A DNA stretch of 64,000 bases from an uncultured Ruminococcus sp. (lineage in GTDB: Bacteria > Bacillota > Clostridia > Oscillospirales > Ruminococcaceae): positions 124,001 through 188,000 of the forward strand of contig NZ_CAMYUE010000003.1 in the NCBI RefSeq assembly GCF_947301925.1, in the 5' to 3' direction. Shown piece by piece: positions 16,601 to 29,935 of the stretch. The notes beneath the pieces were generated by a model. The model was not told the origin of the DNA. It saw nothing but the letters and a program-made list of their open reading frames with translations, and did no database searches. Position numbers and translations under genes: made by a program. The stretch's first letter is position 1. Every line of letters begins with the position of its first letter.

Positions 16601-18744
16601 GACGCTATGCAGATGCAGTATACGAGTATCTATTACAGTGCGGAAATAGAGAATCTCTCAGGGAAATCACCGACAGGGTACTGTCTATAGTTTCTGATAT
16701 CCTGTATATAGATAAGAACGAGATAGATACTGATTCTGATTTTGAGACAATGGGCTTCGGAATGTTTCAGTTCAATACCTTGCTTGAAAGGCTTGTGGAT
16801 TCATATGATATCGCCTCCGATTCAGATGTGTTCATAAAATACAACAATGTAGCTTCGCTTGCAGCGTATATATACGGACTTCGCGGTGGAAGCAAAGCGG
16901 AATGCACTCCTGCACAGATAGCTTATACCATGCAGTGCGGAAGAAATGCCATGGAAGAAAGAGCAGCGATTATCTACACTGATATATCAGACCTGACCGC
17001 AAAGCTTGGTTCATGGCTTAACGGCAGTGAAGCCGGTATTATTGTCAAGAACAATATAAGCAGCGGTATCAGTGAAAGCTTCAGAGAAAACGGATATGAT
17101 AATGATTATCTTGACGATCTTCTCAGAAGCGGTGATATGTCAACAGCGGCCGCATTCTGGGTATTGGGTGCTGATCTTGACTGGAGACTTCTTTATGGCC
17201 GTAGGTATACTGTTGCTCCTCTCCCTGCATATCCCTTTGAGAAAAGGAGATGCTGGATAAGCGGCAATAAAATCACTGTTCAGACTACTCCCTCCGTTAC
17301 TGTTACAGCATCGGAAGAGAGAAAGCCGGGACGCACTGTGGATACCGGCACAGATATTAATTCTGCGGTATCGTTGGGCATAGTGAACGGAAGCATAGCT
17401 GTGGTAAGTATGCACGACACAAAGAATCGCAATATGTTCACCCGTGAATTGGTAGACGGCATGAAGCTTGCATTTAAAAAGATCAATGGAAGCAATGAGA
17501 TAAAGGTAGCTGTTGTCACAGGATATGATAATATATTCTGTACAGGCGGAACGTTTGATGAACTTATCGACATGAGCGATAAGAAGGGAAAGTTTACTGA
17601 TGCTTCGTTTATATATAATGCTTTTCTTGAATGCAGAGTTCCCGTTATTAGTGCTATGCAGGGCCATGCCTTCGGCGGCGGATTTGTATTCGGCCTTTAC
17701 GGAGATATGATCATTCTTAACAGTAGCTGTATCTATAATGCCAACTTTATGAAGTATGGGTTTACTCCGGGACTCGGAGCTACCTTTATACTGAAGGAGA
17801 AATTAGGCCAGAGTCTTGCAAACGAAATGATGTTTACCGCAAGGGATTATCTTGGCAGCGAGCTGAAGGAAAGAGGCGCGTCACTCATATTTGAGGATGA
17901 TGGCAAGATCCTCGAAACCGCACTGTCCATTGCGGAAATGATAGCAAAGAAGCCAATGACCTCGATCGAAGTGCTTAAAAAGGAACTCTCGGGCAGATCA
18001 CTTGAGGCAGTCAACAGCATCGTAAAAAACGAAGCAGATATGCACTCTATAACATTCGGCCTTCCCGAGGTAAAGGAGAAGATCACCTATTATAAGGAGA
18101 TTTACAGCAATAATAAGGAAAGTGCATTGCCTGAGAGCAGCCCGGACACAACACAAAGAGAGGCAGCTTTGGAACAAAGCAGTATAAAGTCAGCTTCCGA
18201 AGTGCCGTGTGTGAATGAGTCCAACAGGATACCATGCAGTGAGATCAAAGAAAAGGTGACAGAGATAGTGGCGGCGAAGCTGCACTATGCTCCCGACGAG
18301 ATTAACCCTGATTTTGCATTCAGTGATCTGGGTGCCGATTCTATAAGCTGTGTTGAGATCATAAGAGATATAAATACAAAGTTTTCTCTTGATCTTGAAG
18401 CAGCCGATCTTTACAATTATCCCACGGTGAACAAGCTTACAGCACATATCGGTGAGATATATAGTTCGGGCGAAACTAATGATAAAACTAATAATACCGT
18501 TCCATCAGCACAAAATGCTGATGAGGACATTGCAGATGGCTGCATTACTCTGAAGCCTGTTGATTCAGAAAACGATGAAGAGGAAACGGAGCATGACTGT
18601 CTTATCACTCTTTCGTCCCTTGATGACGAAGCTGCTGATAAGAGCAATCAGGATGACTATGTTCTGTCACTGATGGACAGGCTCAGTAAAGGCGAGATAT
18701 GCGTTGATGATGTTGAATCAATACTCAGCACAGACAAGGATTAA
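13642..18744 (+). CDS. trans-AT PKS: cMT - ACP - KS4 - (Ser-less ACP-like insert) - ECH - ACP - C-terminal docking element
   Basis: ATG at 13642 overlaps the previous stop (ATGA), SD ttggagg. MT: LLEIGAGTGGTSKSVL. ACP: YGIDSLI. KS: DTACSSG, EAHGTGTALGDP, KSNVGHLE. ECH: NMFTRELVDGMK, TGGTFDEL, GHAFGGGFVFGLYGDMI, NFMKYGFTPGLGATF. ACP: LGADSIS. Confidence 0.93.
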   Translation: MSGNTLNFSVADTIRSVKSPDDDFAFADGYNKLKKIGCRLVADSLYKMGLYSVKGSIGKGVLREKLGILPMYTRMFDALLSLMDEEGFIELEADNVRITGSYVPYHESDYRSDMEALQNEYPEIMPYSNLIDRCVKAYPEVLTGKKGYTEVMFSDNTVSQNVYSGSGEVDYYNSIVAQLIYDYISVNKGRGETIRLLEIGAGTGGTSKSVLEKISRFVDDKEDIRYCYTDISKYFTLFGKKTFYDRYPILDFGLLDINESPSEQGFESGQYDIIFATNVIHATRDIANSISNARSLLKKNGIIIINELINKNDIATMTFGLTDGWWSYTDDIRIKNTPLLTAESWKRVMSDSGYNEVIVYPESSSTRQGIIVGVNGSLGKSSVHMAEKSEKSRSSKKELIIYLRKVFSEVLKVQEEDIKNDLTFENYGIDSLISVEIQKRLSERFEGLSSTLLFEYNTIEKLAEHLCTVCSEKLSPIVEIDETEDDFSLFFVNDEAVDDSDAGESFFTSEDSVSDAINDDTIYETEEKAVSAHTDNDIAIIGVEGRYPDANELSELWENISSGRCSVTTVPGERWDTEGFISENYKAEKKSYTSAGAFINDIDCFDNKLFRIAPKDAEYMDPQERLFLECTWKLFEKSGYTRSHFKDINNKVGVFAGVMSCDYSKLGAQPSYWSLTNRVSYFYDFCGPSITIDTACSSGLTAVHLACQSLRVGECKMAVAGGVNIIIHPEHYNNLCSMDMLSRSGKVHAFGAGADGFVDGEGVGALLLKPLKAAIADDDHIYGIIKGSAINAGGKTSGYTVPNPNAQADVIRTAIDNAGVDPETINYIEAHGTGTALGDPIEIRGLDNAFRSYTDKKQFCAIGSVKSNVGHLESASGILSITKILLQMQHGTICPSINAETINPKISFEDTAFYLQREASEWKHITLEENGTKTVLPYRAGVSSFGAGGANAHIVLEEYPDNKNVLPDDNNAENVFVISARTKEQLRRYADAVYEYLLQCGNRESLREITDRVLSIVSDILYIDKNEIDTDSDFETMGFGMFQFNTLLERLVDSYDIASDSDVFIKYNNVASLAAYIYGLRGGSKAECTPAQIAYTMQCGRNAMEERAAIIYTDISDLTAKLGSWLNGSEAGIIVKNNISSGISESFRENGYDNDYLDDLLRSGDMSTAAAFWVLGADLDWRLLYGRRYTVAPLPAYPFEKRRCWISGNKITVQTTPSVTVTASEERKPGRTVDTGTDINSAVSLGIVNGSIAVVSMHDTKNRNMFTRELVDGMKLAFKKINGSNEIKVAVVTGYDNIFCTGGTFDELIDMSDKKGKFTDASFIYNAFLECRVPVISAMQGHAFGGGFVFGLYGDMIILNSSCIYNANFMKYGFTPGLGATFILKEKLGQSLANEMMFTARDYLGSELKERGASLIFEDDGKILETALSIAEMIAKKPMTSIEVLKKELSGRSLEAVNSIVKNEADMHSITFGLPEVKEKITYYKEIYSNNKESALPESSPDTTQREAALEQSSIKSASEVPCVNESNRIPCSEIKEKVTEIVAAKLHYAPDEINPDFAFSDLGADSISCVEIIRDINTKFSLDLEAADLYNYPTVNKLTAHIGEIYSSGETNDKTNNTVPSAQNADEDIADGCITLKPVDSENDEEETEHDCLITLSSLDDEAADKSNQDDYVLSLMDRLSKGEICVDDVESILSTDKD

Positions 18745-18755
18745 GGAGCTTTGAT

Positions 18756-20129
18756 TTGGATAACGAATATGTAAGGATAAAAGCGCTGAACGGTAAAGCG
18801 CTTGGTTCAGATGAGTTCAGGAAGAAATTCGGACTTGAATACGCTTATGTAGTCGGAGGTATGTATAAAGCCATAACATCGTCAGAAATGATAGCTGTTC
18901 TGTCCCGAAGAGGCATTCTTGCCTTTCTGGGAAGCGGCGGTCTTAGGCATGAAGCTGTCTCGCAGGAGATAGACGCCGTAAGGGAAAAGATATCTGACGG
19001 AGTTTTCGGGGTTAACATAATACATACTCCCAAAAATCGGGAAGCAGAAGAAAAACTGATAGATCTTATGCTGGACAAGCAGATACACTTCATTGAAGCG
19101 GCGGCTTTTGTAAGTGTTACGCCGTCTCTGGCAAGGTACAAGATAAAGGGACTTGCAAGGAATGGTGACGGTTGTGTCGTATCAAGAAACAGGATAATGG
19201 TAAAAATATCTCGTTCTGAAGCAGCAGAGGTCTTTATGAGACCCATACCAGACATTATAATATCTGAGCTTCTATGCAAAGGAGTTATAACAGCTTCCGA
19301 AGCCGAGCTTGCTGCCGGCATACCTCTTGCCGATTCCGTAACTGTTGAAACTGATTCCGGCGGTCATACCGACGGCGGAGTTGCCTATGCGGTTTTTCCA
19401 AGTGTGATGTATCTGCGTGACAGGCTTATGAAAGAATACAGCTACAGCTCAAAAATATATATCGGTGCAGCAGGCGGCATAGGCTCACCCGATGCGGCGG
19501 CAGCAGCTTTCATGATGGGAGCGGATTATATAATGACCGGTTCTGTCAATCAGTGTACAGTAGAGGCGGGGACAAGCGATATTGTCAAGGATATGCTTAA
19601 CAGTGCGACAGTCCACGATACAGATTATGCTCCCTCAGCAGATATGTTTGAGATGAATTCCAGATCACAGGTGCTTAAACGGGGAACATTATACTGTGCC
19701 CGCGCAAAAAAGATTTATGAGCTGTACAGCAGGTACGATTCTCTCGAAAGCATAGACAGTCAGACGAGAGATATGCTGGAGAAGCGTATGTTTCATGATT
19801 CATTGGAAAATGTATTTTCAGAATCTGTAAGATATTATCCCGAAGCGGTGATACAGAGGGCGGAAAATGATCCTAAGCTGAAGATGTATATTGTTTTCAA
19901 GTCATACTTCCATCGTTCATCAAAGGCTGCTTTGAACGGTGATGAAAATGATATTTCAAATTTTCAGATAAACTGCGGCCCCGCAATGGGATCGTTCAAT
20001 TCATTTGTGAAGGGAACGGCTTTAGAAAACTGGCATGATCGACACGCGGATGAAATAGCTGTTCTTATCATGGAAAAGGCTGCCGAGAGAATTAACGTAT
20101 TTTTGCGGGAAAAATTTATAGATGTATAA
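18756..20129 (+). CDS. PfaD/PksE-like trans-acting enoyl reductase (FMN nitronate-monooxygenase fold)
   Basis: TTG start after aaggag. YVVGGMYKAITSSEMIAVLSRRGILAFLGSGGL, VETDSGGHTDGG, IGAAGGIGSPDAAAAAFMMGADYIMTGSVNQ and QINCGPAMGSFNSFVKGT are PfaD-family signatures. Confidence 0.9.
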   Translation: MDNEYVRIKALNGKALGSDEFRKKFGLEYAYVVGGMYKAITSSEMIAVLSRRGILAFLGSGGLRHEAVSQEIDAVREKISDGVFGVNIIHTPKNREAEEKLIDLMLDKQIHFIEAAAFVSVTPSLARYKIKGLARNGDGCVVSRNRIMVKISRSEAAEVFMRPIPDIIISELLCKGVITASEAELAAGIPLADSVTVETDSGGHTDGGVAYAVFPSVMYLRDRLMKEYSYSSKIYIGAAGGIGSPDAAAAAFMMGADYIMTGSVNQCTVEAGTSDIVKDMLNSATVHDTDYAPSADMFEMNSRSQVLKRGTLYCARAKKIYELYSRYDSLESIDSQTRDMLEKRMFHDSLENVFSESVRYYPEAVIQRAENDPKLKMYIVFKSYFHRSSKAALNGDENDISNFQINCGPAMGSFNSFVKGTALENWHDRHADEIAVLIMEKAAERINVFLREKFIDV

Positions 20130-20222
20130 GCCGAAGTTCTGTTGCTGCGCTTCATACAAGAAGAGAAGAAAACAATTTATCGGCACTTTTTTCAGAAGAT
20201 CATACTTTTAGGAGGAAATAAA

Positions 20223-21452
20223 GTGGTTAATGTTGGAATTGAGAAGATTGATTTTTACGGTGGAGCGTGTCAGATAGAGGTGTCCGAGATATTCAGGCAA
20301 AGAGGGCTGAATATTGACCGTTATGCTAACCTGCTTATGAACAAGAAGAGTGTAGGCCTTCCTTTTGAGGATGCTGTTACAAACGGAGTGAATGCCGCTA
20401 TGGGCATAATCGAAAGGCTGACCTCCGATGAGATATCAAAGATAAAGATGGTGATAACTGCTTCTGAGTCCGGTGTAGACTTCGGAAAAAGCCTCAGCAC
20501 ATTCATATATGAATTCCTTCCCCTTGAAACAGATGTGCGGCTTTTTGACATCAAACAGGCCTGCTACGGACTTACGGCAGCTTTCAAGCTCGCAGCAACA
20601 CATATCTGCTGTTATCCTGATGAAAAAGTACTGATCATTGGCTCGGATATAGCCCGAAGCAGCAAGGAGGCAGGCTATGGTGAGCCGTCTCAGGGATGCG
20701 GCTCCATAGCTATGTTAATCAGCTCAAAGCCTGATATTTTCAGGCTGGATACAGGCGCTTACGGAAATCACAGTATGTCACTTTATGATTCCTTCAGACC
20801 CGACAGTCAGATTGAAATTGGCGACCCTGATCTGTCTCTTATGGCATATCTTGACTGTGTAGAGGGCTCCTTTGTTTCATATACTCAGAAGGTAAAGGAT
20901 GTTGACATAGAAAAAACCTTTGAACACTTCATTTTCCATGTTCCCTTCGGCGGACTTGTCAAGGGCGCACACAGAAGACTTGTTACCCTGGGCAGGGATA
21001 TGAAAAGAAATGAGATAGAGGCTGATTTCAAAAAGAGAGTTGAGCCGTCTCTTAAGTTCAATTCACAGGTGGGTAATGTCTATTGTTCGGCAGTATACCT
21101 TGCTCTTTGCGGATTACTTGACTCCGTTGATATCAGCAAAGAAAAGAGAATAGGAGTTTTTTCCTACGGTTCAGGCTCTTCCTCGGAATTCTACAGCGGT
21201 GTTATTACACCCTTATCGTCAAAGATAGTAAGGGAACTTGATATACAGAAAAGGCTCGATAGCAGACATATGCTTGAGTTCGATGAGTACGAATATCTGC
21301 TGAAAGAAAACAGGAAGACCATTTTCGGAGCTGAGAGTTTCGTGAATTCCTATAATAAAGAAAAGGATTATATGAAGAGAGTTGCTGAAGGACGCAGAAT
21401 GCTTTGTCTGCGAAGAATAGCCGATTACAGAAGAGAATACGAATGGATATGA
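20223..21452 (+). CDS. HMG-CoA-synthase homologue (HCS, PksG-like) for polyketide beta-branching
   Basis: GTG at 20223 preceded by taggaggaaataaa. VVNVGIEKIDFYGG, acyl-acceptor Cys context DIKQACYGLTAAFK, IGSDIARS, FHVPFGGLVKGAH, VFSYGSGSSSEFYSG. Confidence 0.9.
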   Translation: MVNVGIEKIDFYGGACQIEVSEIFRQRGLNIDRYANLLMNKKSVGLPFEDAVTNGVNAAMGIIERLTSDEISKIKMVITASESGVDFGKSLSTFIYEFLPLETDVRLFDIKQACYGLTAAFKLAATHICCYPDEKVLIIGSDIARSSKEAGYGEPSQGCGSIAMLISSKPDIFRLDTGAYGNHSMSLYDSFRPDSQIEIGDPDLSLMAYLDCVEGSFVSYTQKVKDVDIEKTFEHFIFHVPFGGLVKGAHRRLVTLGRDMKRNEIEADFKKRVEPSLKFNSQVGNVYCSAVYLALCGLLDSVDISKEKRIGVFSYGSGSSSEFYSGVITPLSSKIVRELDIQKRLDSRHMLEFDEYEYLLKENRKTIFGAESFVNSYNKEKDYMKRVAEGRRMLCLRRIADYRREYEWI

Positions 21453-21475
21453 TCCAGGAAAAGGATGGCTTATTT

Positions 21476-24400
21476 ATGAATCACGATATTTCTATCGTTG
21501 GTATGTCTATAAAGGTTCCCAATGCCGATAATATTGAACAGCTCTGGGATATTATGAAGAACAAGGAGGTATGCATCGGTAATATACCTCTGAACCACTG
21601 GGATGCTGAAGCTTTGACACCGAATGTGAACTGGATGGGAGCAATAAAAGATTATAACGATTTTGATCCTTCGTTTTTCAGGATCTCTCCGAGGGAAGCC
21701 GGACATATGGAGCCTCAGCAGAAAATGATCCTTCAGGAAGTTTGGCGTTGTATCGAGGATTCAGGTATCCCCCTGAAGGAGCTTCAGAGAAAAAAGACAG
21801 CTGTGTATATATCATATTTTCTCATAGATAATAAAAATACTGTCCTGAAGCGCGGTGATACTCCTGAGAAATATGACCTTGTAGGTAATGTTGAGTGTAA
21901 TCTTTCCAACAGGATATCTTATTGCTTTGATTTGACAGGAGAGAGTCTGACTGTTAATACCGCCTGTTCCGGCGGACTTGTATGCTTGTATCATGCACAG
22001 CGTGCTCTTGCTGAAAAAGAGTGTGATTACGCCATAGTAGGCGGAGTCAATCTCAATCTTGATGAGTGGAAGTACAGGTGCATTGATCAGGGGCATATGC
22101 TCAGTCCTGATGGAAGGTGCAAGGCATTTTCCATAAATGCCAACGGTTATGTCTCAAGCGAGGGAGCTCTTGCCTTCTTATTGCAGAGGAAAGAAGATAC
22201 GGAAAGGGATCATAATGACGCCTACGCAGTTATCAAAGGATCCGCAGTAAATTATACAGGCAAAAGCTATAGCATAACCGCTCCTAAAATTGAGAGTCAG
22301 AGAAGTGTCATACTTGATGCACTTGAGAATGCGGGCATGAATGCAGATGAAATATCGTATATTGAAGCACACGGTACAGGGACGTCGCTTGGTGATCCTA
22401 TAGAGATCGAAGCGCTTACACAGGCTTTTCGCGAGTATACCGACAGGAGGAATTACTGCAATATCGGTACCGTGAAGTGCAATATTGGTCATCTTGAGCC
22501 TGCGGCCGGTCTTGCCGGACTTGCAAAGGTGATTTCGATGTTCAGACACAGAGCTATTCCTCCAATCATAGACAACGGAGAAGAAAATCCAATCATCGAC
22601 TTCGAAAACAGTCCGTTCAGGACAAATTACGAGATTGTAGAATGGAAACAGGATGGACCTCTGACGGCTGGCATAAGCTCATTCGGATTCAGCGGCATGA
22701 ATTCCCATGTTATCGTTCAGGAATATGTATCCAAGCAGAAAGCCGATATAAGTTCCGCTGCTGTGAACAATGATTTTATACTTAGTGCAAGAACAGAAAA
22801 GAGTTTGAAGAAAACAGTTAGCAAATGGAAGGAAGCTCTTATAAAGGACGGAAATGTCTTTGATATAAATGAGCTCTGCTTCAACGTACAAAACAGCAGA
22901 TCGGCTTTCAGATATCGTATGCATATCAATGCAAATGATATAAGCGAGCTGATAAGCAGGTTGGATTCGGCTGATATCCTTCATTCAGATGATAACGTTC
23001 CGGTCGAGCTTGAGATCAATATGTTCTGTCTGCCTTCGGACGAAGATACAGGTAAGCTTTGGGCCAGGTTTGAAAGCATACACAGCTCATATAACAGGTA
23101 CTGTGACGCAATATTATCAGAAAATGATATACCTGACGGGGCAGAAGCTGACATGATGCGTCAGTTTGTGCTTTCCTACTGCATTTATGAGATGATTCTC
23201 GGTTCGGGATTAAATGTAAACAGACTGAGAGCAGGAAAGGGCTCGGAACTTCTGACAGCAGCTCTGGCAGGAGCTGTCATCCTGAGCGAAGCAGTAAAAG
23301 TATATACAGGCTTTATGAGTGCGGACGATATTAAAATTCTCCCTTTTTCCATGGACATCACAGACGGAGAAAAAACTTTTTACCGTGATATCCATGTTGA
23401 AAAAGACAGGATCCCAGAGCTTGTAAGCAGCTTCCGTAACAGTTTCGAACATATGAGTGAAAATGATCGCAGGATAACTAACAAGCTGTTATCAGATGTT
23501 AAAAAGCTCTATTATACGCAGAATACCATAAAAAAGAATATCAATCTCTGGAACGATATTCTGATTGATCACGGTATATTGCTGACAGACTATATCAACG
23601 GCAGCTATTCTGTCAAGAATGAAGATGATGAGTTTATCATAACTATCGTATTCATAGATGTTTATCTTGAAGTTCTTAACAGATGGAAGATAACCGATAG
23701 ACTCGGATTTGAGAATGCTGACATCAGTCTTATGAAGTCAATGATAGCTGCAAAATGTCTGAACCGTTCTCAGCTTATTGAAGCAGTAAAGGGCAGCATT
23801 TCCGGTGAGCCCGAATATATAGATATCCCTGTGAATGGTATAGATAAAGGAGAGCTTTCTGCTTTCGGAAATAATAATGAAAGAGACATTTTATCGTTTA
23901 TTATGCAGAACAAGGATGAGAGATCATCATATGCCGCATCTGATGGTATATGCAACAGAATAAGAAATATGATCGTTGAGTACTGGAAGAAAGGCAGTGA
24001 TATCGATTGGGAACGCATAAACAGTGGAGTTGCGTACAGAAAATACCATCTTCCGGTATACCAGTTTGATTTCTATGAGCCTTCTGTAAACGAAGAAGCT
24101 CCTGCTGCAAAATCAGAGGATATAGTTAAAGAAAATGTGACTGTAGAAGATATCATTACAATAGTGCGTGATATCGCAGCTGAAACGGTATTCATGCCCG
24201 CTGATGAGTTGGATAACAATACTAATCTGAACGATTACGGCTTTGAATCCCTTACCATAGCTGAATTTATCAAAAGGCTGAACGAGAGGCTCGGTATCTC
24301 TCTTACACTTCTCACATATTTCATGTATCCTACTGTAAATAAGATAGCTGGCTACATTTTCAAGGAATATGGCTCTGTTCTCCGTATCGGAGTCGGTGAT

Positions 24401-27400
24401 GAGGTTCCTGTGACAGCTGACAATACTGACGCAGAGGATTGTCAGCTTGCAGACTGTTTAATAAAGGTATTTTCGGATATCACAGGTATAGATGAGGAAT
24501 ATATAGAGCTCTCGAACGAACTCTCGGAATATGACCTTGATGCATATAAGATGAGTCGTATAGTTGAGTTGATAAACAAGCAATGCGGCATAGCTGCAAC
24601 TCCGCTGATTTTTGCGGACTGTCTTACCATAAATGACATAATGGGAAGAGTTGGTGAATTAACAGCCGATAAGGATAATGTAACAATGACTGAAAGCGTT
24701 TCCGTCACGCAGGATGCCTGTGCATTGCATAGCAGAAAGATAGCCGTTATTGGTTTGTCTCTTGCAGTTCCGGGAGCTGAGGATATGGACAGCTTCTACA
24801 GGCTGCTTGATGCGAACAAAAACGTTCTCGGTGAGGTCCCGTCAGGCAGATGGGACTGGAACGAATTCTACAATTCACTTGACGATAATGCTTCGTACAG
24901 GAAGCTGAAGTACAAGGCAGGCTTTGTAGATGATTTCGAGTTCTTTGATAACGAATTCTGGAATATGTCCTATAAGGAGGCACTTGTTACCGATCCTCAG
25001 CAGAGAGTACTGCTCGGTGCTGTACTTAAGGCTGTAACGGATGCAGGCCTCCAGCTCGATGAGCTTGCCGGAAGAAGAGTGGGAGTTTTCACCGCAGCGA
25101 CCACAGATGATTATTATTCTCTCGTAAGCGGAAGCAAACTCCTTTCTGATCCGAAACGTCTGACAGGAAGCTATCATTGTTTTATAGCTAACCGTATCTC
25201 GTTTATGTTTGACCTTCACGGTCCCAGCGAGAACATCGACACAGCCTGCTCAAGCGGTATAGTTGCTTGTCACAGGGCAAGGCAGGCGCTTCTCGATAAG
25301 GAATGTGATATAGCAGTTGTAGCAGGTGTAAACGTTATAGCTATCCCCGAGACATTCCTTTCACTTGAAAGAAGCAATATGCTTTCCGCTACAAATACCT
25401 GTCACTCATTTAGCAGTGAGGCTGACGGCTATGCAAGAAGCGAGGGCGCAGGTGTACTGATACTAAAGACACTTGACGATGCTATAAAAGATAATAATCA
25501 TATCTATGCGTCCATATGCGGATCTGCTGTTTCACACAGCGGAAGGACAGGCGGTATAACAACACCTGATATTGATTCGATTTCAGAAGTCATATATAAT
25601 GCATGGAAGGATTCGGGAGAACTTATCGATGAAAATACATTTATCGAGCTTCACGGAACAGGTTCCGTAATAGGTGATTCCGTTGAATATATGGCTCTTG
25701 AAAGCTCCATCCGACATATGGAGCAGGACACCGGAAGGGCGCTTGCACCCGGAAGCGTGTTTGTCGGAACATTGAAGCCTGTTATTGGTCATCTTGAGGC
25801 AGCTTCGGGCATTGTGGAGATAATAAAGGCTATTGTCCAGATGAATTATGACACTTTGTTTGCAATCGGAGATCTGGAGGAGCTTAATCCTAATATTATT
25901 GTAAATGATCAAAGCTGTATCGAGCTTATCAGAGTACACAGAAAATGGACAAGGAATAATGACGAGCGTTTAAGATGCGGTATAAATTCATACGGTTTCG
26001 GCGGACTGAATGCACACATCGTACTTGAATCCAGCGGCAATGCTGTTTCCTGCGATACAGAGGTATATACTCGGAATCTTTACCTGTATTCCGCGAAGAG
26101 CAGGGATTTGCTCATTGATCTTATTAAGAAAAATGCCGACTTCCTTCAGCGTGAGCCTCAGATCTGCGAAAGTATGGATGACTATGCTTATACACTTCAG
26201 TGCTGCTGCCAGCATTATCCGTACAGAGCAGCATTTATAGCAGACAGCAGGGAAGAACTCATAAGAAAGCTCATTAGTTACTGCAATAATGATAGTTGTG
26301 ATAAAGAGACTATATGCAAGACATATAGCACTGCTGATATAGAAAGTGCGATTACTGACAGGAAGCTTGACGTTTTAGCAGATATATGGCTCGGAAAGAG
26401 CGGTAGTATCGAATGGAAGAAGCTTTACGGCGGAGCTGAAAGGAACAAGGTTAGTGTGCCTTCCTATCCCTTTGCAAAGAAACGCTGCTGGCTTGAGCTC
26501 AGTTATGATGGAAATGGCGTATATGATAATATCTCCTTCACACAGACGATATGTTTCAATGACAGTATAGTCTCCGATCACCTGGTGGGAGAGCGCCGTT
26601 ATGTGCCGGCTGTGAATTATCTGCTGAACGTAGCGGAAAAGCTTAAAGAGCTATATCCCCATAAGCGCTTTGAGCTGTGCAGTGTACGTTTTATCATGCC
26701 TTGTGTAGTATTGAAGGATACTGTGATAGAGTATTCTGTCATTCTTGATGATAAGGCCGGCAGCTTTATTGCAAAGGCTCCCGATTCTGATATAGTATAT
26801 GCAAAGGGAGCTATAAGAAAACGTTGTAATGCTGAAGTGTCCCATACCCCTGGAGCAGTCAGCGGTGATACCATTTCAGCGGAGGCTCTGTATGAACGCA
26901 TAAAGCGGATCGGCATAGACTATGGTGAGACTTATCGCGGGATAAAGAACGCTGTTATCGGCAGAGAACGTTTTGAGGGCATTATTGCTGCAAGCAGCAG
27001 CGATACCCTTGCAGCGCGAGTTGCATTATTTGATTCGTCATTGCAGGGAGTATTCATGTATATCGATGATATGTTCGTTCCATTTGAAGCTGAGAGCGTA
27101 TATATAGATCCTTCTGTCAGTGCAGGCAGCTTCAGAAGCATTATGGATATATCAGAGGATCATTATAATATAAGTTGTTCTGATGAGAGCGGAAAAACAG
27201 TTCTTGAAGCAAGAGGGCTTGTGATGAGACAGGCGAAAAAGGAGAGCTGCGGCATATTTGCGCCCGTATGGGAAAAGATCCATACCGCCACAGAGAATGC
27301 TGAAAGCGATTCCGAGAGGACCATAGCTGTAATGCCTGTTTTCTCGGAAAAGGCTTTCGCTGTGCTGAAGAGCTACTATCATAACATCGGATATATATGC

Positions 27401-29935
27401 GCTGATGATATAATAAACGGCAGGATGGACGCATTTGACAGCTCGGTAAGGAGAGTGATATTTGTCTCTTTTTATGAAAAGAGCAGTTCCGACTCTCTTG
27501 TTGATAGCTATAATACAGAAAACTCAGCAGTATCTTTCTTCAGGCTTGTCAAGGAAATGTTGAAAAATGAAATGGACGGCTGTGATATAAGCATCATGAT
27601 CGTTACTGATTCAGCATTCAAAGTCACCGGCAGAGAGCGGATGGATCCGTTCGGTTCAGATATCGTCGGAATGGCATTGTCTGTCAGGAAGGAGATAAGC
27701 GGCTGGCAGATCACTTGTTTTGATACGGACACACTGAACGAAGATACAGTCAGGTCAATGGGAGCGATAAACAGATACTCCGAAGGAGCGTCAGCGCTCT
27801 ATGCCTTCAGAAACGGTGAGGTATATATCAGGAAGCTTGAAAAGACGTGTGTTCCGGAAGAAAGCGGTGATTCACCTTTCAATGAGGAAAGCGTTGTGCT
27901 TATCATCGGAGGCGGTTCTGGCATAGGAGCTCTTACAGCGGCTCATATTGCCGACAGGTATCACAGCAGGATAGCAGTATGCGGAAGAAGGTCAGAGATA
28001 AAGTCTAAACCTGACTATATTGACTATTATTCTTGCGATATATCTGATCCGCTTCAAGTTGAAAGCCTTTTTGACAGAGTACATCAGACATACGGCAAGA
28101 TAGATACAGTGATCCATTCAGCTCTTGTTCTGGACGATTCAACTATAGCTAACATGACTGAAGAACAGCTTCTCCGTGGTCTTGCACCCAAGACATCGGG
28201 TATAATAAATATTGCCAGGGCTATGAGAGCTCATAATGCAGGACAGCTCATAGTATATTCGTCGGTGATGTCCTTTGCTAACTATGCAGGCCAGAGCAAT
28301 TATTCCGGCGGAAGCGTCTTTATCGACTGCTTTGCGGCATATGCGGCAAGAGAGTTTGGGATCAGGTGCAAGGTGTTTAACTGGGGGTTATGGTCGCAGA
28401 CAGGCATCGTAACTGACAGTTTCCATGCGGGAGTGATGAAAAAGAAGGGCTTCCTCGGAATGGACAATGCTGAAGGTATGGAGATGCTTGAAACAGGACT
28501 GCGCTGTACAGACGAACAGTTGGTGGTTCTGAAGCAGATAGGTACTACCGTTACAAATGAGCTTAACGATTACAGGTATCCCGAAGCATTTGCTGCTGCT
28601 GAAGATGCCGGCTTCTCAGATTATCTTGTCGAAAGGCTTATCACCTACGATAAGGTGAGTGAGCTTCTTGAATATAAGAACAGGATAAAGTATATTTCTG
28701 TAGCATTTGCGGACAGGATATTGAAAACAATAGGGGCGGACAGAACGGCCATAACAAGCAGGAACGCACAGCTGCTTTATAATGAGCTCAAGGAGGCTGT
28801 AGAGGCAGACGGCAATATGCTCGATGTGAACTTGGAAACAGGTGATGACTGCTATACAAGGCTGCTTGACAAGATAGAAGGAGCCTATAAAGATGTGCTC
28901 TGCGGCAGAACCGCAGCTACTGAGCTGCTCTTTGCCAATGACACAAAGCAGTTGGTGGCAGATATATACGGTAATAATGACATGGCCGATTATTATAACA
29001 CTATAATAACCAAGTCGCTTCAGTATAAGCTGCTGACATATTTCAGATCAGGCGGGACATACGGCAAAAAGATAAGGATACTTGAGGTCGGTGCAGGCAC
29101 AGGCGGCACAACAAGACCTGTCGCCGAAGGGCTTGAACCATTCTCGGACTTTATCGAATATTATTATACCGATATATCGAAGAGCTTTGTGCTTCACGCA
29201 AAGGAGCGCTTCGAAAGATATGATTTCTTCAGATACAGAACGCTGAATATAGACACTCCTCTTGAGGGCGATCTTGCTGAAATGAAATTTGACTATGTGA
29301 TATGCGCAAATGTTATCCATGCGGTTGCGGATCTTGATCTTGCGCTGGATAATCTCAACAGACTGCTTGATATATCAGGAAGTCTTATAATGTATGAGAT
29401 GACGGAAAAGCTTCTGTTCAATACCATCATATTCGGACTTCTTGACGGTTGGTGGCTGTATGAGAATGACAGGCGCAGGATAAAGGGATCGCCGCTGCTT
29501 ACGAAGTATTCGTGGAAAAAGGTCCTTGAGAAGCACAGTTTCGGTAATATCTCATTCTATGGAGATATAAGCGGCTCGCGAAATATCGGTCAGAATATCA
29601 TTATAGCCGAAAAAATCGGCGAGACTTCGGGGGCGGACACTACAGCCGCAATGCAGGAGCAGGTCATCAGAGATGACAGAAAAGACGTGTTCATATCTAC
29701 AGATGATGTGATATCAGGGGTAATAGGAATGATTGAGGGCGTCGTTCAGGAAAAGATTGCCGATCCGCGAAAGCCGTTTGTGGATTGCGGTATCGATTCC
29801 ATAATGGCTATTGAGATAATAGAGAAGATCAATACAGCCTTCGGACTAAGACTGAGAGCGGTGGATATTTTCAAATATGTTTCTCCCTATGGACTTGCTG
29901 AGCACATCAAAAAGATAAAAACGACAGATCCGTAA
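21476..29935 (+). CDS. trans-AT PKS: KS5 - AT-like relic - ACP - Ser-less ACP-like - KS6 - DH - KR - cMT - ACP
   Basis: ATG at 21476 is in frame with ORF 21404. KS5: NTACSGG, EAHGTGTSLGDP, KCNIGHLEP. ACP: YGFESLT. KS6: DTACSSG, ELHGTGSVIGDS, IGHLEAASG. DH: DHLVGERRYVP and FDSSLQ. KR: LIIGGGSGIG, QSNYSGGS. MT: ILEVGAGTGGTTRPV. ACP: CGIDSIM. Confidence 0.92.
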   Translation: MNHDISIVGMSIKVPNADNIEQLWDIMKNKEVCIGNIPLNHWDAEALTPNVNWMGAIKDYNDFDPSFFRISPREAGHMEPQQKMILQEVWRCIEDSGIPLKELQRKKTAVYISYFLIDNKNTVLKRGDTPEKYDLVGNVECNLSNRISYCFDLTGESLTVNTACSGGLVCLYHAQRALAEKECDYAIVGGVNLNLDEWKYRCIDQGHMLSPDGRCKAFSINANGYVSSEGALAFLLQRKEDTERDHNDAYAVIKGSAVNYTGKSYSITAPKIESQRSVILDALENAGMNADEISYIEAHGTGTSLGDPIEIEALTQAFREYTDRRNYCNIGTVKCNIGHLEPAAGLAGLAKVISMFRHRAIPPIIDNGEENPIIDFENSPFRTNYEIVEWKQDGPLTAGISSFGFSGMNSHVIVQEYVSKQKADISSAAVNNDFILSARTEKSLKKTVSKWKEALIKDGNVFDINELCFNVQNSRSAFRYRMHINANDISELISRLDSADILHSDDNVPVELEINMFCLPSDEDTGKLWARFESIHSSYNRYCDAILSENDIPDGAEADMMRQFVLSYCIYEMILGSGLNVNRLRAGKGSELLTAALAGAVILSEAVKVYTGFMSADDIKILPFSMDITDGEKTFYRDIHVEKDRIPELVSSFRNSFEHMSENDRRITNKLLSDVKKLYYTQNTIKKNINLWNDILIDHGILLTDYINGSYSVKNEDDEFIITIVFIDVYLEVLNRWKITDRLGFENADISLMKSMIAAKCLNRSQLIEAVKGSISGEPEYIDIPVNGIDKGELSAFGNNNERDILSFIMQNKDERSSYAASDGICNRIRNMIVEYWKKGSDIDWERINSGVAYRKYHLPVYQFDFYEPSVNEEAPAAKSEDIVKENVTVEDIITIVRDIAAETVFMPADELDNNTNLNDYGFESLTIAEFIKRLNERLGISLTLLTYFMYPTVNKIAGYIFKEYGSVLRIGVGDEVPVTADNTDAEDCQLADCLIKVFSDITGIDEEYIELSNELSEYDLDAYKMSRIVELINKQCGIAATPLIFADCLTINDIMGRVGELTADKDNVTMTESVSVTQDACALHSRKIAVIGLSLAVPGAEDMDSFYRLLDANKNVLGEVPSGRWDWNEFYNSLDDNASYRKLKYKAGFVDDFEFFDNEFWNMSYKEALVTDPQQRVLLGAVLKAVTDAGLQLDELAGRRVGVFTAATTDDYYSLVSGSKLLSDPKRLTGSYHCFIANRISFMFDLHGPSENIDTACSSGIVACHRARQALLDKECDIAVVAGVNVIAIPETFLSLERSNMLSATNTCHSFSSEADGYARSEGAGVLILKTLDDAIKDNNHIYASICGSAVSHSGRTGGITTPDIDSISEVIYNAWKDSGELIDENTFIELHGTGSVIGDSVEYMALESSIRHMEQDTGRALAPGSVFVGTLKPVIGHLEAASGIVEIIKAIVQMNYDTLFAIGDLEELNPNIIVNDQSCIELIRVHRKWTRNNDERLRCGINSYGFGGLNAHIVLESSGNAVSCDTEVYTRNLYLYSAKSRDLLIDLIKKNADFLQREPQICESMDDYAYTLQCCCQHYPYRAAFIADSREELIRKLISYCNNDSCDKETICKTYSTADIESAITDRKLDVLADIWLGKSGSIEWKKLYGGAERNKVSVPSYPFAKKRCWLELSYDGNGVYDNISFTQTICFNDSIVSDHLVGERRYVPAVNYLLNVAEKLKELYPHKRFELCSVRFIMPCVVLKDTVIEYSVILDDKAGSFIAKAPDSDIVYAKGAIRKRCNAEVSHTPGAVSGDTISAEALYERIKRIGIDYGETYRGIKNAVIGRERFEGIIAASSSDTLAARVALFDSSLQGVFMYIDDMFVPFEAESVYIDPSVSAGSFRSIMDISEDHYNISCSDESGKTVLEARGLVMRQAKKESCGIFAPVWEKIHTATENAESDSERTIAVMPVFSEKAFAVLKSYYHNIGYICADDIINGRMDAFDSSVRRVIFVSFYEKSSSDSLVDSYNTENSAVSFFRLVKEMLKNEMDGCDISIMIVTDSAFKVTGRERMDPFGSDIVGMALSVRKEISGWQITCFDTDTLNEDTVRSMGAINRYSEGASALYAFRNGEVYIRKLEKTCVPEESGDSPFNEESVVLIIGGGSGIGALTAAHIADRYHSRIAVCGRRSEIKSKPDYIDYYSCDISDPLQVESLFDRVHQTYGKIDTVIHSALVLDDSTIANMTEEQLLRGLAPKTSGIINIARAMRAHNAGQLIVYSSVMSFANYAGQSNYSGGSVFIDCFAAYAAREFGIRCKVFNWGLWSQTGIVTDSFHAGVMKKKGFLGMDNAEGMEMLETGLRCTDEQLVVLKQIGTTVTNELNDYRYPEAFAAAEDAGFSDYLVERLITYDKVSELLEYKNRIKYISVAFADRILKTIGADRTAITSRNAQLLYNELKEAVEADGNMLDVNLETGDDCYTRLLDKIEGAYKDVLCGRTAATELLFANDTKQLVADIYGNNDMADYYNTIITKSLQYKLLTYFRSGGTYGKKIRILEVGAGTGGTTRPVAEGLEPFSDFIEYYYTDISKSFVLHAKERFERYDFFRYRTLNIDTPLEGDLAEMKFDYVICANVIHAVADLDLALDNLNRLLDISGSLIMYEMTEKLLFNTIIFGLLDGWWLYENDRRRIKGSPLLTKYSWKKVLEKHSFGNISFYGDISGSRNIGQNIIIAEKIGETSGADTTAAMQEQVIRDDRKDVFISTDDVISGVIGMIEGVVQEKIADPRKPFVDCGIDSIMAIEIIEKINTAFGLRLRAVDIFKYVSPYGLAEHIKKIKTTDP

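Follow-up and report, generated by a model that had tools for sequence, protein, structure and literature searches.

Introduction

Dead AT-like domains placed after the ketosynthase (KS) domains of trans-AT polyketide synthases (PKSs) are already known as a kind. MmpF, from the mupirocin trans-AT PKS, joins a KS to an AT-like domain that is truncated and lacks the Ser-His dyad (PMC10098928). In the same source, OzmQ_KS1 (oxazolomycin) and MgsF_KS4 (iso-migrastatin) are described as carrying partial AT truncations and are called cis-/trans-AT evolutionary intermediates (PMC10098928). In trans-AT KSs, the flanking subdomain (FSD) is likewise considered a relic of evolution (PMC9113145). Lines of the cis-AT type carry the LPTYPFx5W motif behind the AT, and trans-AT lines carry it behind the FSD (PMC11260071). 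Two related Ruminococcus lines of 13/14 modules have already been noted in metagenomes (PMC7930024).

The locus described here lies in a Ruminococcus genome and was analysed in a window of 64,000 nucleotides (G000:C3:124001-188000); positions given without a prefix are those of the window. The fifth KS of the line (KS5) is followed by an insert that an earlier note on this DNA had taken for a dead AT and likened to the AT-docking remnants of leinamycin-type systems. The insert does occupy the same place after the KS as the flanking subdomain and the AT-docking region proposed in the leinamycin idea (PMC6164871, PMC9113145), but where ordinary trans-AT KSs have the flanking region, KS5 has that region plus about 300 further residues. 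MmpF, OzmQ_KS1 and MgsF_KS4 are a closer parallel than the leinamycin-type remnants. Like KS5, MmpF has an AT-derived piece without a catalytic dyad behind its KS in a trans-AT system; in MmpF this piece is of the alpha/beta-hydrolase type. MmpF itself, however, is a stand-alone and shorter KS-AT relic, made up of an AT-like part and a loop (507-745), whereas the KS5 insert has full AT length, lies within a multi-module protein and has a separate, probably helical second half.

OzmQ_KS1 and MgsF_KS4, compared by their published description, likewise have an incomplete AT behind a trans-AT KS; unlike them as so described, the KS5 insert and its homolog in a second Ruminococcus genome (G040) are not shortened overall and have no recognisable AT C-terminal half. 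The insert thus resembles this truncated class in being AT-derived, dyad-less and part of a trans-AT system, but it is not truncated (416 residues from KS to post-linker, and 438 in G040, vs 397-418 in intact modules). The LINKS motif of trans-AT KSs adds a helical element to the KS-AT linker domain (PMC11907408), as the insert may do; LINKS elements are not described as AT-derived (PMC11907408), whereas the first part of the insert very probably is. Within the open-access literature, the features that appear to set the insert apart are its full length, its new second half, its embedded position and its recurrence in a second cluster.

Results

The KS5 module and its cluster

The polyketide cluster extends roughly over C3:76972-164839. 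KS5 is the first domain of ORF 21404-29935, in which it is followed by a linker, the insert, a post-linker, an ACP, an ACP-like domain, KS6, DH, KR, methyltransferase and ACP. The HMG-CoA synthase-like gene lies directly 5' of the KS5 gene. The features around the insert are as follows.

18756..20129, plus strand: PfaD-type protein of the cluster (TIGR02814, E 2.7e-172)
20142..21452, plus strand: HMG-CoA synthase-like beta-branching enzyme (PF08540/PF01154; TIGR01835, E 4.4e-72, under the curated cut-off)
21476..22735, plus strand: KS5 ketosynthase domain (Pfam PF00109/PF02801)
22769..22990, plus strand: KS-to-AT type linker domain (flanking subdomain, N-terminal part; PF16197 in the ORF)
22991..23923, plus strand: whole insert, 311 residues, from the linker domain to the post-linker motif (spacing; SAb67; G040; dN/dS)
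23057..23317, plus strand: probable degenerate AT N-terminal core, insert residues 23-109 (hhalign; decoys; PDB stretches)
23318..23923, plus strand: second half of the insert, no known family assignable (conservation in G040; no Pfam match)
23924..24079, plus strand: post-AT-type linker, terminating in YHLPVYQFDFYE (A6 profile vs PDB)
24134..24373, plus strand: ACP1 of module 5, attachment Ser present (GFESL; PF00550, E 5.6e-16)
24449..24673, plus strand: ACP2 of module 5, Ala for the attachment Ser (YDLDAYKM; PF00550, E 1.3e-7)

KS5 is probably active, because the Cys, both His and the Lys of the active site are present (C164, H299, K334 and H339, all invariant across the KS alignment). A profile of the linker and the insert together (A6) was searched against all PDB chains. 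Its positions 2-67 match the linkers of trans-AT KSs (PksL, PksJ and others) and its positions 400-433 match KS post-linkers. The Ser-to-Ala change of ACP2 (YDLDAYKM) is also found in R. flavefaciens SAb67, and module 5 thus combines a dead AT with a dead ACP. The linker domain of KS4 is interrupted at 16645-16875 by an ACP-like domain (PF00550, E 4.9e-9) from which the attachment Ser is missing (GFGMFQF).

A PF00698 search of the whole genome detected no AT embedded in any module; the matches were two free-standing AT proteins, one lone and one tandem, and FabD elsewhere, in agreement with the earlier description of the assembly line as otherwise AT-less. The free-standing ATs of the cluster are the lone AT at C3:76990 and the tandem AT protein at C3:104928-106712. 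The second AT of the tandem protein (G000:C3:105927-106712, L008) has GCSLGE in place of GHSxGE and could be of the acyl hydrolase type known from trans-AT clusters. Located 5' of the tandem AT (G000:C3:100053-104880, L004/L005) are HADH-, FkbH- and acyl-CoA dehydrogenase-like genes and two electron-transfer flavoprotein subunits, likenesses that were taken from the sequence starts only; these genes suggest an unusual extender or starter unit.

Position and length of the insert

The length of the region was followed as the spacing between the end of the KS and the W..G..IDW post-linker motif, where this pattern was found directly after the KS. This spacing is 416 residues for KS5, vs 109, 112 and 128 residues for three AT-less KSs of the same line, which bears out the some 300 extra residues first reported. 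KS4 has a spacing of 210 residues, owing to a different insert. For modules that have an intact cis-AT (Ruminococcus, Streptomyces, Burkholderia and others), it is 397-418 residues. As the KS5 spacing is like that of intact cis-AT modules, the extra length is that of one AT domain, and it lies at the place of the AT, between the KS-AT linker and the post-AT linker. The peptide quoted for the insert in the earlier note is in frame in ORF 21404-29935, but the end given there (23810) falls about 110 bases before the true end of the insert. The insert is open in the R. flavefaciens SAb67 ortholog, with which it is 77% identical and aligns without gaps.

A homolog in a second cluster

Searching 125 genomes of the genus for KSs led to a homologous insert on contig 80 of G040. 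The linker and insert of G040 align with their KS5 counterpart by BLAST, and the G040 insert alone scores 19.6 bits against a two-sequence profile (best shuffle 9.3). Its KS-to-post-linker spacing is 438 residues, and the AT pattern is better preserved in it (GYGSGFYTSLAASGIIMLTEAL). By sequence match of the insert, SAb67 was the only hit within the 125-genome genus sample, G040 having come via its KS. Samples of the order, the class and the family, each comprising several hundred genomes, yielded no match to the insert, and neither did a plasmid collection. The G040 cluster is a small trans-AT cluster (L097:858-6299) with one PKS composed of KS, pseudo-AT, psi-KR, KR and ACP. A free-standing AT gene (GFSLGE) directly adjoins this PKS, and several KAS III-like genes lie alongside.

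Loss of catalytic residues

The AT nucleophile is absent from both inserts, the GHSxGE motif being replaced by AGKGSE in KS5 (23231-23248) and by GYGSGF in G040; the loss of the Ser in KS5 had been correctly noted before. The dead motif lies 165-172 residues past the KS (165 in KS5), vs 166-220 in intact cis-ATs. On inspection of the aligned inserts, the GQGSQ motif, the Arg and the catalytic His were not recognisable. All three sequences retain a Ser (GKGS, GYGS) beside the place of the lost nucleophile. With these residues gone, the insert would be incapable of acyl transfer.

Probable AT ancestry of the N-terminal part

No PF00698 match or other useful Pfam or NCBIfam match was obtained with the KS5 insert alone, and its single-sequence scores against FabD or cis-AT HMMs were not above those of shuffles. 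The AT likeness became significant only once the related sequences, i.e., the SAb67 ortholog and the G040 homolog, were added. With an ungapped 62-column AT matrix, the best windows of the inserts scored 7.1 bits (KS5), 10.8 bits (SAb67) and 28.0 bits (G040). Among the 258,612 windows that lack an intact GHSxGE motif, only 9, mostly ATs or AT relics, reached 10.8 bits or more, and the G040-level score (28 bits) was matched by three other such windows, one an AT and two of them relics. Some unrelated windows score 7-20 bits, and the KS5 matrix scores alone are therefore modest.

Profile comparison with 29 ATs by hhalign gave the N-terminal part of the insert a score of 40; for the core at insert residues 23-109, scores of 41-42 (E 2.2e-5 to 3.7e-5) were obtained. 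In the controls, 300 column shuffles reached at most 20.0 and 199 real non-AT stretches at most 24.1. Without G040, the two orthologs alone still scored 37. Among the PDB chains matched by the A6 profile, those of PKSs extending into the N-terminal half were the CurL KS-AT (positions 3-180), ZmaA (3-181) and the PKS AT 5yda (120-183), whereas trans-AT KSs matched over the linkers only. The G040 insert alone retrieves only two ATs from the PDB, and the G040 linker and insert together match an NCBIfam KS-AT PKS model (E 7.8e-10) over both linker and AT core. PDB matches to Protein A and DARPins were discarded as helical repeats, and weak profile matches to L057 and L058, which are not KS tails, as chance.

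From these comparisons, insert residues about 23-109 very probably descend from an AT. The proposal of a dead AT is thus supported for the first 110 or so residues of the insert, in which the profiles and PDB matches agree and the catalytic motifs are gone; beyond a weak hint, it does not extend to the second half.

The second half of the insert

The remainder of the insert occupies the place of the AT small subdomain and C-terminal part and is predicted, at low confidence, to be mostly helical. It shares LYxxQxTxKKxIxxW with G040. The relationship between KS5 and G040 is detected more clearly in this C-terminal half than in the AT-like half, a hint that the C-terminal half may have its own function. 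A weak match of this half (23475-23800; L097:2913-3356) to the AT core region that the first half also matches would suggest tandem AT cores but is not robust: hhalign scored 27.6 with three sequences and 11.6 with the ortholog pair, and shuffles reached up to 27.5. In both AlphaFold models of the insert (one from two sequences, the other in its KS context with ten sequences), pLDDT was about 30-45.

Selection and history

Between the KS5 cluster genome and SAb67, the insert has a dN/dS of 0.22 at a dS of 0.57, with no indel in 311 residues. The corresponding ratios are 0.22-0.24 for linker and psi-KR parts and 0.045 for KS5. The insert is therefore under constraint and is not junk, yet it is unlike a catalytic domain.

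In the tree of KSs, KS5 groups with the KS of G040 (98/97) inside the trans-AT KSs (93/89). A tree with the pair placed at the main cis-AT KSs is worse by 7.7 log units but is not rejected (p 0.14), and KS5 may yet be a captured cis-AT KS. Other Ruminococcus PKSs also carry AT relics (L091/G119, L092/G133, L107/G019, L006/G036, L090 on G109:C14, L095 on G045:C26 and L093/G048). Like KS5, they have a KS-linker and then a dead AT core at a similar offset; unlike KS5, they are shorter, with 226-248 residues up to the post-linker in those measured, and those that were placed belong to a separate KS lineage. A single origin of all relic-bearing KSs was rejected (p 2e-8), so ATs have decayed at least twice in the genus. 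The genus shows a graded decay of the AT: intact cis-ATs, full-size dead ATs (KS5 and G040), short relics, and modules with no AT.

Discussion

The explanation that we favour, and consider somewhat better than even, is that the insert is a pseudo-AT retained for its structural part in the KS-linker platform, the extenders coming from trans-ATs. Its first third would stem from the N-terminal core of a cis-AT at the normal place between the linkers, and the rest would be a conserved, probably helical segment that replaces the missing AT parts. The malonyl units for module 5 would be supplied by the free-standing ATs of the cluster, with ACP1 loaded in trans. The pseudo-AT may have been kept because the KS, the linker domain and the post-linker fold against it, as filler or scaffold. 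A scaffold role would fit the measured constraint. Counting against the reading as a pseudo-AT are the lack of a Pfam match, the low pLDDT of the insert and the C-terminal half, which is not convincingly AT; the Ser kept beside the lost nucleophile also leaves a slight chance of a shifted nucleophile.

In the main rival reading, the insert is a docking platform that would bind the trans-AT of the cluster, or another trans-acting enzyme such as the HMG synthase cassette, and bring it to ACP1. It lies where a cis-AT would be, and it is found in two clusters that each encode free-standing ATs. Conservation of the second half can be detected from one cluster to the other, and the insert is under purifying selection. 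However, most KSs of the line, which the same ATs presumably serve, lack such an insert, and the AT-docking idea in the literature, described only as originally proposed, is about the region that follows the KS (PMC6164871); docking is unlikely. In a more elaborate form, to which we would give rather little weight, the dead AT was rebuilt, its C-terminal half having been exchanged for a new helical domain that would recruit a trans-AT or a beta-branching enzyme to one module. A roleless relic, still decaying and with only its in-frame length remaining, would account for the loss of all catalytic motifs, for a dN/dS above that of catalytic domains and for the shorter AT relics in other PKSs of the genus. 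It is nevertheless improbable given a dN/dS of 0.22 without a single indel in 311 residues at a dS of 0.57, and given a non-AT half that is detectably conserved between two distant PKSs.

Two further readings bear on the nature of the N-terminal part. If the AT motif had arisen by chance, the insert could be a helical insertion of non-AT origin, e.g., a LINKS-type element that has grown in size and serves lateral contacts between KSs. In trans-AT KSs, LINKS elements add helices to the KS-AT linker (PMC11907408); the insert is predicted to be mostly helical (at low confidence), and neither Pfam nor the single-sequence scores place it above chance. Such an origin is very unlikely, as the profile scores lie far over those of shuffles and decoys, the sequence neighbours of the N-terminal half among solved structures are AT chains, and the spacing is AT-like. 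The constraint on the insert and the invariance of the GxGS Ser in all three sequences could also point to a new catalytic use, for instance through this Ser, which is one position off the lost nucleophile. That possibility is slight in the extreme, since no GQGSQ, Arg or His motif could be recognised and the dN/dS is well over that of catalytic domains.

The conversion of cis-AT modules into trans-AT modules is usually argued from the end states. Here one genus has a graded series of ATs at the same place. With its full length, its new second half and its recurrence in a second gene cluster, the KS5 insert is useful as an evolutionary intermediate. Were the rebuilt AT the true reading, an AT would have been turned into a module-specific docking domain common to two otherwise different Ruminococcus trans-AT PKSs. 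If the pseudo-AT, which we regard as probably a retained structural part, does have a role, then module engineering at the LPTYPF-type boundary would be concerned, where it would matter whether the segment is a scaffold, a docking site or debris.
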